39,283 bases of DNA, from positions 1 through 39,283 of the forward strand of contig NZ_JAQMSD010000183.1 of assembly GCF_028330525.1 (NCBI RefSeq), given 5' to 3'. Below, piece after piece: positions 8,012 to 27,592 of this stretch (the first letter of the stretch is position 1; every line of letters starts with the position of its first letter). The position numbers and the translations under genes are program-made. Below the pieces are notes generated by a model. It did not search any database, was not told the DNA's origin, and was given only the letters and a program-made list of their open reading frames with translations. The DNA comes from Spirulina sp. CS-785/01 (lineage in GTDB: Bacteria > Cyanobacteriota > Cyanobacteriia > Cyanobacteriales > Spirulinaceae).

Positions 8012-8083
8012 AGCGGGTAACGCGATTCGAACGCGCGACATTCACCTTGGCAAGGTGACGCTCTACCACTGAGCTATACCCGC
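8012..8083 (-). tRNA. trnG: tRNA-Gly (GCC)
   Basis: The minus strand reads GCGGGTATAGCTCAG at the 5' end, has anticodon GCC in the loop of a CACCT/AGGTG stem, a TTCGAAT T-loop, and a 3' acceptor strand that pairs with the 5' seven bases. The discriminator base is T. CCA is not encoded: Ts follow the acceptor stem, so it must be added by a nucleotidyltransferase such as the one encoded at 9150. The gene lies just downstream of ribH. Confidence 0.95.
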
Positions 8084-19724: not shown

Positions 19725-20927
19725 ATGCGTTGGTTTAAACTTATGCGAAAATTGGTAACTCATTTATTGGCTTTGGTGGTGGGGGTGATGCTGGCCTTTT
19801 CCAGTCTGCGGGTTTCCTCCTCTCAAGCGGTTGCCCTAACCACTCCCCCTCACGCTGAACCGTCTTTTCAACTCGCCCAAGATGGGAGTCCGAGACAGAG
19901 ACGGCAAAGTTTTGTCTCTAGCGCGATCGCGCGAACTGGGCCGGCGGTTGTCCGTATTGATACCGCCACCACCGTCTCCACCCAACTCCCCTCCATGTTA
20001 GAAGACCCCTTCTTTCGGGACTTTTTTGGCGATCGCTTTTTACAACGATTTCCCCAAGAACGCCGCGTCGAAGGACAAGGATCAGGGTTTATTATTGACC
20101 AAAATGGCCTCATCCTCACCAATGCCCATGTGGTCAGTCGGGCCGAAGAAGTCTCCGTCACCCTACCCGATGGACGGGAATACGACGCAACGGTATTAGG
20201 AACAGACCCCGTAACCGATTTAGCCGTGGTCAAAATTGCCGAGGCCGTGAGTAACTTACCCGTTGCCCCCCTCGGTAACTCCGATGCCTTAGAAGTGGGC
20301 GACTGGGCCATCGCCGTGGGGAGTCCTGGGGGTCTCAATAATACCGTCACCCTCGGCATTATCAGCACCCTCGACCGACCCTCCGCCCAAGTCGGCATCC
20401 CCGATAAACGCCTCAACTTCCTGCAAACCGATGCGGCCATTAACCCCGGTAACTCCGGCGGCCCCCTCTTAAATGACCGAGGAGAAGTCATCGGCATTAA
20501 TACCGCCATCCGTCGCAATGCCACCGGAATTGGCTTTGCTATCCCCATTAACAAGGCCAAAGACCTGAAAGACACCCTAGCCGCAGGCCGCGAAGTCCCT
20601 CACCCCTACGTCGGCATTGAAATGCGGGATTTAACCCCCGACATTGCCCGACGCAATAACCAAGACCCCAACTCCAGCATGAGAGTCCCCGAAGTTGAAG
20701 GGATTTTCGTCTGGCGAGTCCTCCCCAACACCCCCGCAGAAACCTCCGGACTCCGACGGGGGGATGTGATCCTCGAAATTAATGGACAGCGCGTGAAAAC
20801 CGGGGTTGAGATTCAAAATATTGTCGAACAAAGTGGCATCGGCAAGCGACTCAACTTCAAAGTCCGACGGGGGGAGAGAACCCTCACCGTCACCGTTACC
20901 ACCGCCCAACTCCGGGATAACGGCTAA
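19725..20927 (+). CDS. HtrA/Deg-type serine protease
   Basis: This exported or envelope-anchored protease acts in protein quality control. The N-terminal hydrophobic segment (residues 8-28) ends near the SSQAVA region and is a signal peptide or anchor. The trypsin-like domain has the triad His135 (LTNAHVV), Asp165 (TDLAVVKI) and Ser244 (NPGNSGGPL). A single PDZ domain follows at about 300-395 (GIFVWRVLPNTPAETSGLRRGDVIL split by the usual loop). The 400-residue length with one PDZ matches cyanobacterial HhoA/HhoB/HtrA; I cannot choose between them. The start at 19725 leaves a second Met at residue 7 as an alternative. Confidence 0.94.
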   Translation: MRWFKLMRKLVTHLLALVVGVMLAFSSLRVSSSQAVALTTPPHAEPSFQLAQDGSPRQRRQSFVSSAIARTGPAVVRIDTATTVSTQLPSMLEDPFFRDFFGDRFLQRFPQERRVEGQGSGFIIDQNGLILTNAHVVSRAEEVSVTLPDGREYDATVLGTDPVTDLAVVKIAEAVSNLPVAPLGNSDALEVGDWAIAVGSPGGLNNTVTLGIISTLDRPSAQVGIPDKRLNFLQTDAAINPGNSGGPLLNDRGEVIGINTAIRRNATGIGFAIPINKAKDLKDTLAAGREVPHPYVGIEMRDLTPDIARRNNQDPNSSMRVPEVEGIFVWRVLPNTPAETSGLRRGDVILEINGQRVKTGVEIQNIVEQSGIGKRLNFKVRRGERTLTVTVTTAQLRDNG

Positions 20928-20963
20928 AAAGTTAAGAAACCTTGAAAAAGTTTGGCCTAACGC

Positions 20964-20991
20964 TTGACAATGACCGATTTCGCGCTATGCT
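20964..20991 (+). promoter_or_regulatory. Sigma-70-type promoter of the candidate small RNA
   Basis: A perfect TTGACA (20964-20969) is followed, after 16 bp, by TATGCT (20986-20991). Transcription would start near 20998. It is the clearest promoter-like sequence in the window and lies 37 bp after the protease stop. Confidence 0.7.
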
Positions 20992-20997
20992 TTAGTC

Positions 20998-21066
20998 AGG
21001 TGTGAGGAAAGAGTGAGAAAAAGCACTTGGGGTCGAAACATGGCAAGACTCCCAAGTGCTTTTTCA
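20998..21066 (+). ncRNA. Candidate Yfr2-like small RNA with its own terminator
   Basis: From the predicted start near 20998 the transcript would be about 69 nt: a single-stranded purine-rich part (GGTGTGAGGAAAGAGTGAG), then a perfect 15-bp stem (21017-21031 with 21051-21065) whose 3' arm ends in TTTTT. The apical part has a small GTC/GAC stem closing the loop GAAACATGGCAA. Cyanobacterial Yfr2-family RNAs are short and have GGAAACA-type loop elements inside a GTC/GAC-closed hairpin, from memory. The alternative is that the hairpin is simply the terminator of the protease gene; the strong promoter in front argues against that. Confidence 0.6.
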
Positions 21067-21087
21067 ATGGAAATTTTTAATTAAATT

Positions 21088-21711
21088 ATGATTTGGCTTG
21101 CATCTTGGCCGCGTTCAGGAAATACGCTACTACGAACTCTCTTATTTTCCTGTTTTGGTCTCTACAGTGGTAGCGTTTATCCGCAAGATTTAGGCAATAA
21201 TAAAACCTTAGAACAACAGGTGGGACATATTGAATGGAATGGGGACGGAACGATTGATTTTCCGGAACAAGTCCCCCTCTTTAAAACCCATGAATATCCC
21301 CCCAACGAACAACCTGCCATTTACGTTGTTCGGGATGGACGAGTGGCCTGTGTTTCTATGTGGTTATTTTATAATCAATCAGCCCCATTAGAAGCCATTA
21401 TTGCGGGACAACATCGTTTTGGAACTTGGGGCAATCATGTTCAAGCCTGGTCGCCTTGGAATCGTCCCAATACGCTGTTATTAAGATATGAAGACCTTTC
21501 TACAGATTATACAACAGCGTTAGAGCCGTTGTCTAGTTTTTTGGGTGTTCCCCTTCAGTCCGAAGTATTACCCTCCCGTGAGGAAATTGCCCGCAAGGAT
21601 GGACGATGGGTGCGTAAAAAAAGTGATTGGCGGGACTATTGGACGGATGAGTTAGAGACATTATTTTTACAATATAATCAAGCAATGTTGGAGAAGATGG
21701 GGTATAGTTAG
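21088..21711 (+). CDS. Sulfotransferase-domain protein
   Basis: The 207-residue protein has the PAPS 5'-phosphosulfate loop WPRSGNTLL (residues 7-15) at its very start and a 3'-phosphate motif VVRDGRVACVSMW at about 79-91. LLRYEDLSTDY and the C-terminal WRDYWTDELETLF fit the Sulfotransfer_1 group. Such enzymes move sulfate from PAPS to a hydroxyl or amine; the acceptor is unknown. It is shorter than typical members (250-300) but looks complete at both ends. The start is 23 bp after the small RNA terminator, so it needs a promoter in that gap or readthrough. Confidence 0.85.
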   Translation: MIWLASWPRSGNTLLRTLLFSCFGLYSGSVYPQDLGNNKTLEQQVGHIEWNGDGTIDFPEQVPLFKTHEYPPNEQPAIYVVRDGRVACVSMWLFYNQSAPLEAIIAGQHRFGTWGNHVQAWSPWNRPNTLLLRYEDLSTDYTTALEPLSSFLGVPLQSEVLPSREEIARKDGRWVRKKSDWRDYWTDELETLFLQYNQAMLEKMGYS

Positions 21712-21763: not shown

Positions 21764-24700
21764 TTATTCTAAAATCTGCAAAATCTTATCATAGGCAAAA
21801 TTATTAACATAGCCTTTCAGTTGTTGTTTTAACTTCTCTTGGTTCGCTGGCATTTCTTCTAATAAATCTTCAATTGCAAAGGGATCTAAAGCTAAACAAG
21901 CCTCAGAAACTGCGTTTTTCCAGTCCGGGGACAGTTCTATAACTTGTGAACCTTCCTCCTCCTCAGCCCCCACATCTTCGTCGGGTTGAGTGTCTTCTGC
22001 TGCGTAACGATACCGAACTTTTAAATATTGCTCTAATTTATCTAAAATAATGGGAATGCGAAAAGGTTTACTGACAAAATCATGACACCCTGCATCTAAG
22101 GCAATATCTCGCTGATCATCAAAGGCACTAGCGGTTAACGCTAAGATGGGAGTGGGGGAGGTTTGTTGCTCTTTTTCCCGTGTCCGAATGGACTGGGTTG
22201 CCTCATATCCATCCATCACAGGCATTCGCATATCCATCCAGATTAAATGGGGTTGCCAACTTTCCCATAGGGTAACGGCCTCCTCTCCATTTTCTGCCTC
22301 TTTTGTGACAAACCCCAAGGGGTCTAAAATTTGTTTCAGGAGTTGACGATTCACGGTTTGATCATCGACAATTAATAAGCGGTATTCCGGTTGATCGGGA
22401 GCTAACCCCACCACCTCACGAGTGACCAATTCCTCCTCCTCTAGTTCAGTTTCTAAGGGGATGACCTGAATCTCAAATTGAAAACTTGTTCCTTTTCCCA
22501 CTTGCGAGTCAACGGTAATTGTTCCCCCTAAAAACTCTACATATCGCTGGGTAATGGCTAACCCTAACCCCGTTCCCTGTTTGGAGTGAATTCCGGCCTC
22601 GGTTTGGACAAAGGGATTAAATAAATCCTGTAATTCTTCTGGGGCAATACCGACTCCTGTATCTTTGACGATAAAGCCAATTCGCGCTTCTTGTTCGTTT
22701 TGAGAAAGCAAGTAACTCTCTAGGGTAATTTCCCCTTGGGGGGTAAACTTAATGGCATTACTGAGGAGATTAATGAGAATTTGCCGTAATTTCAAGCGAT
22801 CGCATTCTACAGAAATCGGCAAATCATCCCCAACCTGACAAATAAACCGTAAATCCTTCTCCTGCGCTTTCAAGCGATACATCTTCTCCACTTCCGTTAA
22901 CAGACGAGGCAAATTAAACACTTCCGGTACTAACGTCATCTGTCCGGCTTCAATTTTGGAGAGATCAAGAATATCATTAATCAGTCCTAACAAATGTTCC
23001 CCACTACTCTCAATAATATTCAAATTATCCTGTTGGGACGGGTTTAAATTCTCACTGCCCGATAACACCTGGGCAAACCCTAAAATGGCATTAAGGGGCG
23101 ATCGTAACTCATGACTCATATTCGCCAAAAAGGTACTTTTCGCCCGGTTGGCCGCCTCTGCCTCCTCCTTCGCTTGTTGCAGTTGCACTTCCGCTTCCTT
23201 GAGAGAGGTAATATCCAACACCACCCCATGCCAAATCATCTCCCCATTTTCCCGTTGCACAGGCCGCGCATTCCCCAACACCCAGACAAATTCCCCCGAT
23301 GGCCGCAGTTGTCGCCATTCATGGGAAAAGGGTTGTAAATAGTCAATAGACTGCTGCAAAGCCTCCCTATAATGGGGTTTATCTGCCTCATGAATACTCT
23401 CAATTAGCACCGAACTATCCTCATAGGCCGCTGCGGGGGAAACACCAAATAATCGCTCACATTCCTCACTAATATACTCAAAACGCCATTCTCCCGTAGG
23501 CAATAGCTTCATAGTATAAATGACCCCCGGAATATTCTCAGCCACCCCTTGCAGTCGCTCTTGAGTCTGTTTCAGAGAGGTAATATCCTGAATCTGAGAG
23601 ACAAAATAGAGAGGAGTCTCCTGTTCATCCCGTACCAAGGACACATTCAACAATCCCCAAATAATCCGCCCTGACTGGTGAACATAGCGTTTTAACCGTT
23701 GATAGGTGCGTAGGTCTCCCGCTAACATTTGCTCTAGTAAAGCAACATCCCCCTCTCGATCTTCAGCATAGGTAATTTCAGCAAAGGTTAAATTGAGTAA
23801 CTCCGCCTCACTATAGCCCAAGATTTCCAACATAGACTGGTTTACTTGTAATAACCGTCCCTCCGTGGACACTAAGGCCATCCCGGTGGCCGCATCATCA
23901 AAAGCGCGACGGAACCGTTCTTGACTCTCCCGTAACTGCATTTCCGTCCGTTTCAGTTCCGTAATATCCACCTCTAGGCCATCCCAAACCGTCCGTCCAT
24001 CGGGCAACCGACGGGGCATAGAGCGCACATGAGACCATTGTAAGTTCCCGCTTGGGGTGCGTTTGCGCATCTGCATTTGGTAGGGGGTTAAATGCCGCCA
24101 AGATTCTTCGGTGAGTTGCTCGTTTAACTGTCGATCTTCTTCGATGATTAAATTAAAGAGTCGGGTTGCATCCTCTAGTATGTCTTCTGGTTGCAAGCCC
24201 ACCAGTCGTTCAATTCCGGCACTAATATAGGAAAAATAATACTCTCCATTGGGGGCCCGGACCATTTGATAAATTAACCCTTTATCAATGTTATCTCCGA
24301 GGGTGCGGAGGCGTTCTTCTTGTTCTCGTAACTGTTCTTCGGCTTGTTTGCGTTCGGTGATGTTATGATTTACGCCGACGGTGGCGATCATTTTGCCTTG
24401 GACATCATAGAGGGGCAAAACGGAGGTGTCTGAAATGCCTTTTGTGCCGTCTTTACGAATAAAAATGAATTCCCCGGACCAATGGCCTTGTTGTTCGAGT
24501 CCCTCTCGTACTTTTTCGGTCATGAGTTTGGCCAGATGGGGTTCGTGGATGATTTCTGGGGTTTGGCCGAGGACTTCTGCTTTGCTGTAGCCAAACATTT
24601 TTTCGGCCCCTAAATTCCAGTCGGTGATTTTGCCCTCTAGGTCGGTGACAATGACTCCATCGTTCATACTATTAAAGATGAGGGCTTGTTGACGGAGTTC

Positions 24701-26557
24701 AAATTCGTCTCTTTTCCGTTGGGTGATATCCCGGATCATAAAGAGGACTTCTGTTTCGGAACTTTTGACGACGCGCACTTCTTCGTATTGCAGTTTGCCG
24801 TTAATTTCGTTTTGTTGTTCGTAGAGAACCATTTCTCCGGTTGCGAGGACTTTCTGAATGGCGTTGATGTGTCGTTGGTAGGTGTCGGGGGGGAGAAATT
24901 CCCGCAGATGTTGACCGATGGGGTTAAAGTCGGAGGGGAGGAGGTCGGTCATGGCGTTGGTGCGGATGTAGCCCATGTAGATGCCTTGGGCGTTGACGCG
25001 AAACATGAGGTCGGGGATGGCATTAAGGATGGCGTTATTGCGCTGTTCGCTGGCTTCTAGGGCGAGTTCGGCCCGTTTGCGTTGAGTGATATCTCGGATC
25101 ATAAACAGTGCTTCATCTTCTCCGCTTTGGACTACGCGCACTTCTTCATACTGGAGACTCCCGTTGATCTGTAGTTGTTGTTCATAACTGACCATTTCTC
25201 CGGTGTCTAGGACTTGTTGCAGGGCATTGAGTTGTTTTTGACAGACTTCGGGGTATTCAGGGAGAAATTCGCTGATATGCCGCCCCACTAGATTCATGTT
25301 GGGGGAAACCAGTTCGGTCATGGCGTTAGAATGGACGTAGCTGAGATAAAAGCCTTGGCGGTTGAGGCGAAACATGAGGTCGGGGATGGCGTTGAGGATG
25401 GCCCGGTTGCGCCGTTCGCTGGCTTCTAGGGCGAGTTCGGCCCGTTTGCGATCGCTGATATCCCGAACCATAAACAGCACTTCGTCTTCTCCACTTTGCA
25501 CTACGCGCACTTCTTCGTACTGGAAATAACTGTTGATGTCTAGTCGCTGTTCATAACTGACCATTTCTCCGGTGTCTAGGACTTGTTGCAGGGCATCGAG
25601 TTGTTTTTGACAGACTTCGGGATATTCGGGGAGAAATTCCCGCAGATGTCGCCCGATGGGGTTAAAATCTGGGGGGAATAGGTCGATCATGGTGTTGGTG
25701 CGGACGTAACCTAGATACCCCCCTTGGCGGTTGACGCGAAACATGAGGTCGGGGATGGAATTAAGGATGGCGTTATTGCGCCGTTCGCTGGCTTCTAGGG
25801 CGAGTTCGGCTCGTTTGCGTTGAGTGATATCTCGGACAATAAATAATACTTCTTGACTATCACAGGGAATCACTCGCACTTCTTCGTAATGGGTTTCCCC
25901 GTCAATGAGGATTTCCTGTCCATACACTTGAATTTCTTGGCTGGCTAAGGCGGTTCGGGTGGCTTCCATCCGTTTCTCGGCGAGGGGCTGCGGTAAGATG
26001 TCGTAGAGGTTAGAGCCTTGTTGCACTTGATCCGGTTTGTAGAGGGCAATGTTCCCACTGTGGACGATATCTCGATAAGTCCCGCTTGCATCCATGCGAA
26101 TGAGGAGGTCGGGAAAGCCTTGCAGCAGGGCGTTAAAGCGGGCATAGTTGTGTTGGAGGATGGAGTTATGATCGGGGGAGGGTTGCAGTTGTTTGAGGTA
26201 GGTGAGAATTTCTTCGGCGAAAAAGGGGGGGAGCAAGTAACCATTTCCTCCCACTTGAAAGAGTTTTTGACGGTTGAGGGAGTCTAGGGTGTCGGACAGA
26301 AATAAGACGGGGAGGGTTTGACTGTCGGGGTGGGTTTTGAGGCGTTGACAGAGGGTATAACTGTCCATGTCTTGGACCTGGGGGGAGAGAAAGATATAGT
26401 CGGGGTGGGTTGCTCCAGAGGTGAATTTTACCCAGTCCCAGACCGCTTGAGGGGTTTGAGCGAGGGTGACTTGGTATTGATGTTGGGTTAAGAGGCTGTA
26501 TAGAGACGGGGGACAGTCTCCACCGATTAGAATATGACCTATGGGAAAATCAGTCAT
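21764..26557 (-). CDS. Hybrid sensor histidine kinase with about eight PAS domains
   Basis: From the ATG at 26557 the protein has 1597 residues; an upstream GTG at 26635 is less likely. The order is: degenerate receiver (about 5-120), four PAS domains of one kind ending in RDIxxRKR, four more PAS/PAC units (the first with GVIVTDLEGKITDWN), coiled coil, HisKA with His1149 (MSHELRSP), HATPase_c with the N box QILINLLSNAIKFT and GTGLGLAI, then a receiver with Asp1442 (WMDMRMPVMDG) and a tail of about 110 residues. It is soluble, so it senses cytoplasmic signals. The N-terminal receiver lacks both key residues (FLSPQV for the Asp, LLPPF for the Lys). The gene is convergent with the sulfotransferase. 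Confidence 0.94.
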   Translation of the reverse strand: MTDFPIGHILIGGDCPPSLYSLLTQHQYQVTLAQTPQAVWDWVKFTSGATHPDYIFLSPQVQDMDSYTLCQRLKTHPDSQTLPVLFLSDTLDSLNRQKLFQVGGNGYLLPPFFAEEILTYLKQLQPSPDHNSILQHNYARFNALLQGFPDLLIRMDASGTYRDIVHSGNIALYKPDQVQQGSNLYDILPQPLAEKRMEATRTALASQEIQVYGQEILIDGETHYEEVRVIPCDSQEVLFIVRDITQRKRAELALEASERRNNAILNSIPDLMFRVNRQGGYLGYVRTNTMIDLFPPDFNPIGRHLREFLPEYPEVCQKQLDALQQVLDTGEMVSYEQRLDINSYFQYEEVRVVQSGEDEVLFMVRDISDRKRAELALEASERRNRAILNAIPDLMFRLNRQGFYLSYVHSNAMTELVSPNMNLVGRHISEFLPEYPEVCQKQLNALQQVLDTGEMVSYEQQLQINGSLQYEEVRVVQSGEDEALFMIRDITQRKRAELALEASEQRNNAILNAIPDLMFRVNAQGIYMGYIRTNAMTDLLPSDFNPIGQHLREFLPPDTYQRHINAIQKVLATGEMVLYEQQNEINGKLQYEEVRVVKSSETEVLFMIRDITQRKRDEFELRQQALIFNSMNDGVIVTDLEGKITDWNLGAEKMFGYSKAEVLGQTPEIIHEPHLAKLMTEKVREGLEQQGHWSGEFIFIRKDGTKGISDTSVLPLYDVQGKMIATVGVNHNITERKQAEEQLREQEERLRTLGDNIDKGLIYQMVRAPNGEYYFSYISAGIERLVGLQPEDILEDATRLFNLIIEEDRQLNEQLTEESWRHLTPYQMQMRKRTPSGNLQWSHVRSMPRRLPDGRTVWDGLEVDITELKRTEMQLRESQERFRRAFDDAATGMALVSTEGRLLQVNQSMLEILGYSEAELLNLTFAEITYAEDREGDVALLEQMLAGDLRTYQRLKRYVHQSGRIIWGLLNVSLVRDEQETPLYFVSQIQDITSLKQTQERLQGVAENIPGVIYTMKLLPTGEWRFEYISEECERLFGVSPAAAYEDSSVLIESIHEADKPHYREALQQSIDYLQPFSHEWRQLRPSGEFVWVLGNARPVQRENGEMIWHGVVLDITSLKEAEVQLQQAKEEAEAANRAKSTFLANMSHELRSPLNAILGFAQVLSGSENLNPSQQDNLNIIESSGEHLLGLINDILDLSKIEAGQMTLVPEVFNLPRLLTEVEKMYRLKAQEKDLRFICQVGDDLPISVECDRLKLRQILINLLSNAIKFTPQGEITLESYLLSQNEQEARIGFIVKDTGVGIAPEELQDLFNPFVQTEAGIHSKQGTGLGLAITQRYVEFLGGTITVDSQVGKGTSFQFEIQVIPLETELEEEELVTREVVGLAPDQPEYRLLIVDDQTVNRQLLKQILDPLGFVTKEAENGEEAVTLWESWQPHLIWMDMRMPVMDGYEATQSIRTREKEQQTSPTPILALTASAFDDQRDIALDAGCHDFVSKPFRIPIILDKLEQYLKVRYRYAAEDTQPDEDVGAEEEEGSQVIELSPDWKNAVSEACLALDPFAIEDLLEEMPANQEKLKQQLKGYVNNFAYDKILQILE
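24700..25810 (-). repeat. Three tandem PAS-coding units with a 369-bp period
   Basis: Within the kinase gene the block tggcttctag(ggcgagttcgg) recurs at 25051, 25420 and 25789, exactly 369 bp or 123 codons apart, and the encoded PAS units are nearly the same (RNNAILNSIPDLMFRVNRQG, RNRAILNAIPDLMFRLNRQG, RNNAILNAIPDLMFRVNAQG). This is a recent tandem expansion. Confidence 0.9.
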
Positions 26558-27592
26558 TGTGTGTTTGTCTGGACGGATGGGGTTATGGGTTAGTGTACTC
26601 GAAAATCTTTTCCTCTTAACAAGGAGGCTTATCACTATCCTAGGACAGATGAGGGAGAAATCTCCAACGGTTTAGGATACGCTGCAACCACTGGGGAGTC
26701 TTTGACGGTTAAGGGGGTTAATGTCAAGGATGCTGGGTGTCCTAAGTCTTTTCTTCCTAGAATTAAAAATGCTATTCTCTCGATGAGCCTTGCTATCTGT
26801 CTTCAAGGCGGTTATAACGGAGAAGATTGCTTGCGATCGCTGCCTATATTCCTAATTGATCAAGATTTCCAGTCAAACCCCTCGCCTTTAGCTAGGGGAC
26901 TGTCAACTCTTTCTAACCTGATGAAATGCTGATTTCAGCCCCTTTTCTCTCCTGATCTATTTTGAGGATGTATTTCGTTACACTACGCTACTCTATGTAT
27001 AACTGTATCATGATATAGTCCAAACTTTTACAAAGTTTCACATATTTTGACAGTATTTACAATTCAGTTATATTTTTTAAGCAAACATAAAGATTATGAA
27101 TAAAACATCAAGCCCAAAAAAGATAAAATTAAAATGGCAATGATTTTTGCATCACGCATTACTCTATTATACTTTCTCTATTTATTACAATTTGCTCTAT
27201 TACAATTTCTCTAATTTTTCTCTATTACAATTTGCTGTATAACAATTTGCTGTATAACAATTTGCTGTATAACGAATAACACCTTATACCTGACCAATAA
27301 CACTTTATCACGAAAAACAATCTTTGGTTAATACAAATTGGGCATACAAAGGGCATACCAAGAGCATACACAGTTACTAATTGACGAATCCCGTTCAGGA
27401 GGCTAGGCGAAAGGATAACACAAAACTCAAAACGAAGCTCAGGGGATATAATGATTGGCATATTTTATACGCTAAAACTACCTTTTTATATATTTTTTGT
27501 AGCCCCATTCTTTTTCACAAATCTTGATTAATCAACAAGCAGTCTAGTTATAAAAAAAATTCCCTTGTGTAAACCATTGAGGCTTAATAGTA
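26558..27592. other. Gene-poor AT-rich region between two kinase genes
   Basis: No gene is supported. The plus strand is open from 26594 to 26932 (reading AATTGESLTVKGVN and on) without recognisable similarity; it may be a relic of an IS200/IS605-type tnpB 3' end. An inverted repeat cccct/agggg around 26880-26900 (context CCCCTCGCCTTTAGCTAGGGG) looks like the hairpins at such element ends, which supports but does not prove this. From about 27000 the sequence is very AT-rich and probably holds the promoter of the next gene. Confidence 0.45.
27226..27270. repeat. 15-bp tandem repeat (aacaatttgctgtat)
   Basis: Copies begin at 27226 (one mismatch), 27241 and 27256. Degenerate versions (attacaatttgctct, attacaatttctcta) precede them from about 27180. 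The unit length equals that of the array at 7846 but the sequence is unrelated. Confidence 0.9.

Follow-up and report, generated by a model that had tools for sequence, protein, structure and literature searches.

A further Yfr2-family small RNA gene, predicted between an htrA-type protease gene and a sulfotransferase gene in Spirulina sp. CS-785/01

Analysis of a 39,283-nucleotide contig of Spirulina sp. CS-785/01 (NZ_JAQMSD010000183.1, whole stretch, hereafter the window) indicates that the unit at 20998-21067 is, judging from its sequence, an ordinary further copy of Yfr2, a well-known regulatory sRNA that nearly all cyanobacteria carry. Taken as a whole, the locus is very probably best explained as a free-standing Yfr2 (Cyano-1) sRNA gene, whose RNA of ~70 nt would pair with Yfr1, make contacts through its loop and be read through into the sulfotransferase gene. 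Gierga et al. 2009 is reportedly the paper on the Yfr2 family. The features discussed here are the following, with positions counted in the window.

19725-20927, + strand: gene for an HtrA-type serine protease with a PDZ domain, upstream (Pfam PF13365, PF13180)
20964-20991, + strand: promoter-like pair of the sigma-70 type, TTGACA-16-TATGCT (consensus match and shuffle control)
About 20998-21067, + strand: predicted Yfr2-family (Cyano-1, RF01701) sRNA gene (Rfam match at 20996-21067, start placed from the promoter spacing)
20999-21008, + strand: 5' motif GGTGTGAGGA, whose 10 nt are exactly complementary to part of the Yfr1 encoded in the same genome
21017-21065, + strand: hairpin of 18 bp, in which a single U bulges out at 21050, at -4 relative to the loop (fold, covariation)
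21035-21046, + strand: conserved 12-nt loop GAAACAUGGCAA (= GAAACATGGCAA), within 19 nt identical to the primer site of Synechocystis Yfr2a
21088-21711, + strand: gene for a sulfotransferase of 207 aa, downstream (Pfam PF00685, match from residue 2)

The family assignment is carried by the covariance-model search that an earlier, sequence-only reading of this DNA had suggested. The Rfam Cyano-1 model (RF01701) matches 20996-21067 over its full length (model positions 1-69 of 69); the score of 56.1 bits clears the cut-off of 41, with an E-value of 2.6e-7 in the window. This bears out the description of the unit as a Yfr2-like small RNA. The same reading had considered a diverged member or a new family, but the score lies 15 bits above the cut-off and the loop is the usual one; its view that the loop is not standard fails, since the loop lies within 19 nt identical to the Synechocystis Yfr2a primer site and recurs in the copy on contig C55 of the same genome. 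Relative to the RF01701 consensus, the 5' part reads GGAAA instead of GGAGU, nine bases are inserted before the stem and three bases are deleted in each stem arm. Cyano-2, which we take to be RF01702, had also been put forward and gave nothing at E up to 10 in 20800-21200, being absent from the 11 Rfam matches there as well as from the two gathering matches of the window. None of the other Rfam families matching at 20800-21200 up to E = 10 came close to its own cut-off. Elsewhere in the window, Rfam places a tRNA gene on the minus strand at 8012-8083. When the Cyano-1 model was run on 14 control genomes, a match was found in Synechococcus elongatus only.

Yfr2 RNAs are characterised by the Cyano-1 RNA motif (excerpts of PMC8400943), and the features described for them are a conserved unpaired 5' end, a 12-nt loop, a bulge at -4 and a long stem (excerpts of PMC2662882). 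All of these are present here, with an unpaired 5' end, the 12-nt loop at 21035-21046 and the bulged U at 21050. Two further marks of the family were also found: the genome carries more than one copy and the htrA neighbour is not shared by other copies, in line with the multiple, unconserved locations described for Yfr2 in excerpts of PMC6778093, and the motif has computed complementarity to Yfr1.

The proposed promoter withstood closer inspection: TTGACA-16-TATGCT occurs once in the window, where shuffled sequences average 0.02 matches, and it agrees with the consensus at 10 of 12 letters. In a scan of 20900-21120, promoter-like sites were found only 5' of the sRNA. About 7 bases past the pair, AGGTGTGAGGAAAGAGTGAG begins, and the hairpin follows. 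Among the family copies, exact TTGACA was the best -35 candidate in 20/30, and 8/30 reached 7 or 8 of 12 letters only, in a scan that keeps the highest score within 50 bases for each copy and lacks a null control.

The hairpin had been described as a perfect 15-bp stem plus a T-run. The fifteen outer pairs (21017-21031 with 21051-21065) are indeed perfect, but three more pairs, GUC/GAC, stand above the bulged U, giving a stem of 18 bp with one bulge, and the T-run sits within the 3' arm, where it is able to pair with an upstream A-run. The minimum free energy of 20996-21068 is -29.0 kcal/mol (z = -5.30), and none of 200 shuffled sequences folded as well. Because a GC-rich core stem is followed by TTTTT, the hairpin has the look of a terminator, and it probably doubles as an intrinsic one; a terminator scan of 20900-21120, with a loop limit of 8 against the 12 nt of this loop, found none. 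Between the end of the stem and the ATG at 21088 lie 22 nt, not the 23 previously counted.

Conservation within the family supports both the structure and the motifs. Cyano-1 was found in 13/13 genomes of the taxonomic family including this one (E up to 0.001), which holds three Cyano-1 genes and one Yfr1 gene; Yfr1 was likewise found in 13/13, in 12 of them over its cut-off. In a sample of the order searched under stricter filters, 118/120 genomes had Cyano-1 among the matches listed, 83/120 over the cut-off; of the remaining 37/120, two had no match at all among those listed. In other families of the order, the matches listed also include clusters of about 1 kb each, with four Cyano-1 copies at G030:C29:118871-119890 and three at G046:C48:46228-47001. 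Of the 34 matches in the taxonomic family, 30 are in alignment A1 and the other 4 came without a locus; five of the 34 are below the Rfam cut-off (38.8, 37.3, 35.5, 34.4 and 33.8 bits), and of these L033, L029 and L030 are in A1.

Over the 28 distinct rows of A1 (two duplicate others), 96.1% of 491 cells in the hairpin are paired, and 15 of the 18 pairs vary on both sides, values reached by 0/500 shuffles (1/500 for the number of pair types); the hairpin covaries. Sliding the partners by one column lowered pairing to 55.8%, a comparison in which the true register is somewhat favoured, since A1 was aligned by sequence and the structure taken from the window's own row. GTGTGAGGA and the loop pattern CGAAACANGGNNAGNC are both present in 30/30 aligned copies, a count that is partly by construction, as the ends of A1 were set by the 5' motif and the copy-finding model rewards the motif. 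The upper stem reads GAC/GTC instead of GTC/GAC in 8/30 copies with the same loop, a clean swap that marks a second Yfr2 type; these are L005:1501-1572, which is this genome's third copy (contig C10), and L025, L026, L027, L028, L029, L030 and L033. The C55 copy has its loop in common with the copy studied here.

Comparison with Synechocystis sp. PCC 6803 points in the same direction. Yfr2a is described as a strongly expressed short RNA of about 80 nt, and positions 21034-21052 here, loop plus upper stem, are identical to a published 19-nt Yfr2a primer; Yfr2a likewise has a 12-nt loop, a bulge at -4 and an unpaired 5' end (excerpts of PMC2662882). It also follows a protein gene that points the same way, trxA for Yfr2a and htrA here, and Yfr2a has a mapped start of its own (excerpts of PMC2662882). 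The promoter and start proposed here are consensus matches, and the sequence comparison with Yfr2a covers its primers. A Yfr2c probe primer contains 14 nt, CAGGTGTGAGGAAA, that stand at 20997 here. Three genomes of the sample (G040, G063, G113) have a copy at coordinates like the published Yfr2a position, but 0/9 published primers were found in them and the upper stem is swapped; the resemblance was therefore read as chance.

The Yfr2 motif is nearly complementary to Yfr1, and Yfr2 of Prochlorococcus was reported to bind Yfr1 and, with a GFP reporter in E. coli, to undo its repression of a target (excerpts of PMC6778093). Those experiments used Prochlorococcus RNAs, whereas the pairing considered here is computed. 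The computed dimer gain with Yfr1 is -23.0 kcal/mol, whereas 200 shuffled Yfr1 sequences averaged -10.0 (sd 2.8) and none was as good; 400 random 70-mers of the window gave a mean of -4.5 and a best of -18.3 with Yfr1, again none as good as the Yfr2 copy. The other two copies of the genome reach -19.3 and -20.8, and in either case none of 200 shuffles did as well. That the studied copy reads GGAAA and not GGAGU shortens the match to Yfr1 on that side, but an extra G on the 5' side keeps it at 10 nt. The conserved GUGUGAGGA at 21000-21008 is unpaired in the centroid fold; in the MFE fold including 20996-20997, three bases are paired across the 5' motif. Since the complementary motif does not vary among the 30 aligned copies, the Yfr1-Yfr2 pairing draws no support from covariation.

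By analogy with these systems, the most likely mechanism is that of an sRNA whose 5' GGUGUGAGGA would pair to Yfr1 and whose loop would act as a second contact site. The locus would yield an abundant transcript of about 70 nt, GGUGUGAGGA would pair with UCCUCACACC of Yfr1, and this pairing would relieve the repression of Yfr1 targets. The exposed 12-nt loop would be open to further partners, and transcription reading through the hairpin would cover the sulfotransferase gene just downstream.

Read-through into the sulfotransferase, which the sequence-only reading had suggested, is plausible, and expression of that gene from the sRNA promoter is likely, because the promoter-like sites found in 20900-21120 all lie before the sRNA. 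There is also a precedent in Synechocystis, where Yfr2b and Yfr2c have mapped start sites in common with the genes downstream, for which read-through has been proposed (excerpts of PMC2662882). Yfr2b and Yfr2c lie directly upstream of slr0199 and sll1477, whereas a sulfotransferase gene follows here and its co-transcription is predicted from the arrangement (excerpts of PMC2662882). A literature search found nothing joining Yfr2 with a sulfotransferase, and one for Yfr2 sRNA readthrough also found nothing, a weak result given that PMC2662882 spells the word 'read-through'. The further idea that in this lineage a Yfr2 copy moved in between htrA and a sulfotransferase specific to the lineage, and that Yfr1 binding at its 5' end alters the terminator hairpin or the stability of the RNA, is a long shot; the one RNA would then act in trans as a sponge and also switch the gene that follows.

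The short gap between stem and ATG, with no promoter-like site in it, would also suit a leader or attenuator that acts in cis and serves chiefly to control the sulfotransferase. This is quite improbable, as the RNA is present in 13/13 family genomes and the sulfotransferase is matched, weakly, in 2/12 others (32-34% identity), and in a crude scan 19/30 family copies lacked any frame of at least 80 codons that starts within 250 nt downstream on the same strand. In addition, the lack of synteny of Yfr2b and Yfr2c has been used as an argument that these two RNAs are not mere leaders and have a function beyond that (excerpts of PMC2662882).

With three copies in the genome, one could be redundant, and the studied copy might be silent or decayed. 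We consider this very unlikely, because it is the best scoring of the three (56.1, 53.0 and 41.6 bits) and its promoter-like pair, motif, bulge and loop are all intact. That the hairpin is nothing more than a terminator or 3' UTR of the htrA mRNA is scarcely credible. It does start 89 nt past the htrA stop codon, in the same orientation, and no other terminator-like site was reported in 20900-21120. However, it is preceded by a promoter-like pair and by the conserved 5' motif, no such RNA lies past the stop of the best htrA match in the 10 of 12 other family genomes covered (all but L166 and L167), and an htrA match is absent from the flanks (at most 1.5 kb) of 29/29 other family copies of the RNA.

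The sequence-only reading had itself named a hairpin that is only the 3' end of the protease mRNA as an outcome that would overturn it. A Yfr2-like pattern, even a loose one, was found at 0/99 other htrA-type loci (loci and not genomes, some being the same place twice, one a paralogue in the same genome and some ending near the gene), and therefore the hairpin is not the 3' end of htrA itself, though it may double as an htrA terminator too. Two Spirulina MAGs, with 72 and 74% identity, are among the top htrA matches that carry a name. A wider contig scan for the sulfotransferase, with six peptide patterns suited to close relatives and records of this or very near genomes perhaps left out, found no relatives, and a plasmid search gave no match. 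On the minus strand beyond the sulfotransferase gene, an open frame of 1623 codons at 21764-26635 resembles, by eye, a multi-PAS hybrid histidine kinase.

The predicted free-standing Yfr2 gene thus sits in a place that looks particular to its lineage, because no htrA match flanks the 29 other copies, no Yfr2-like pattern occurs at the 99 other htrA loci and the sulfotransferase matches are weak; this fits a family whose loci are reportedly not conserved. By itself the finding has little significance, as nearly all the cyanobacterial genomes searched already have this family and the locus contributes one more gene to it. It illustrates again that Yfr2 copies swap neighbours while structure and motifs stay constant, and it offers one more case of an sRNA promoter that may drive the next protein gene.
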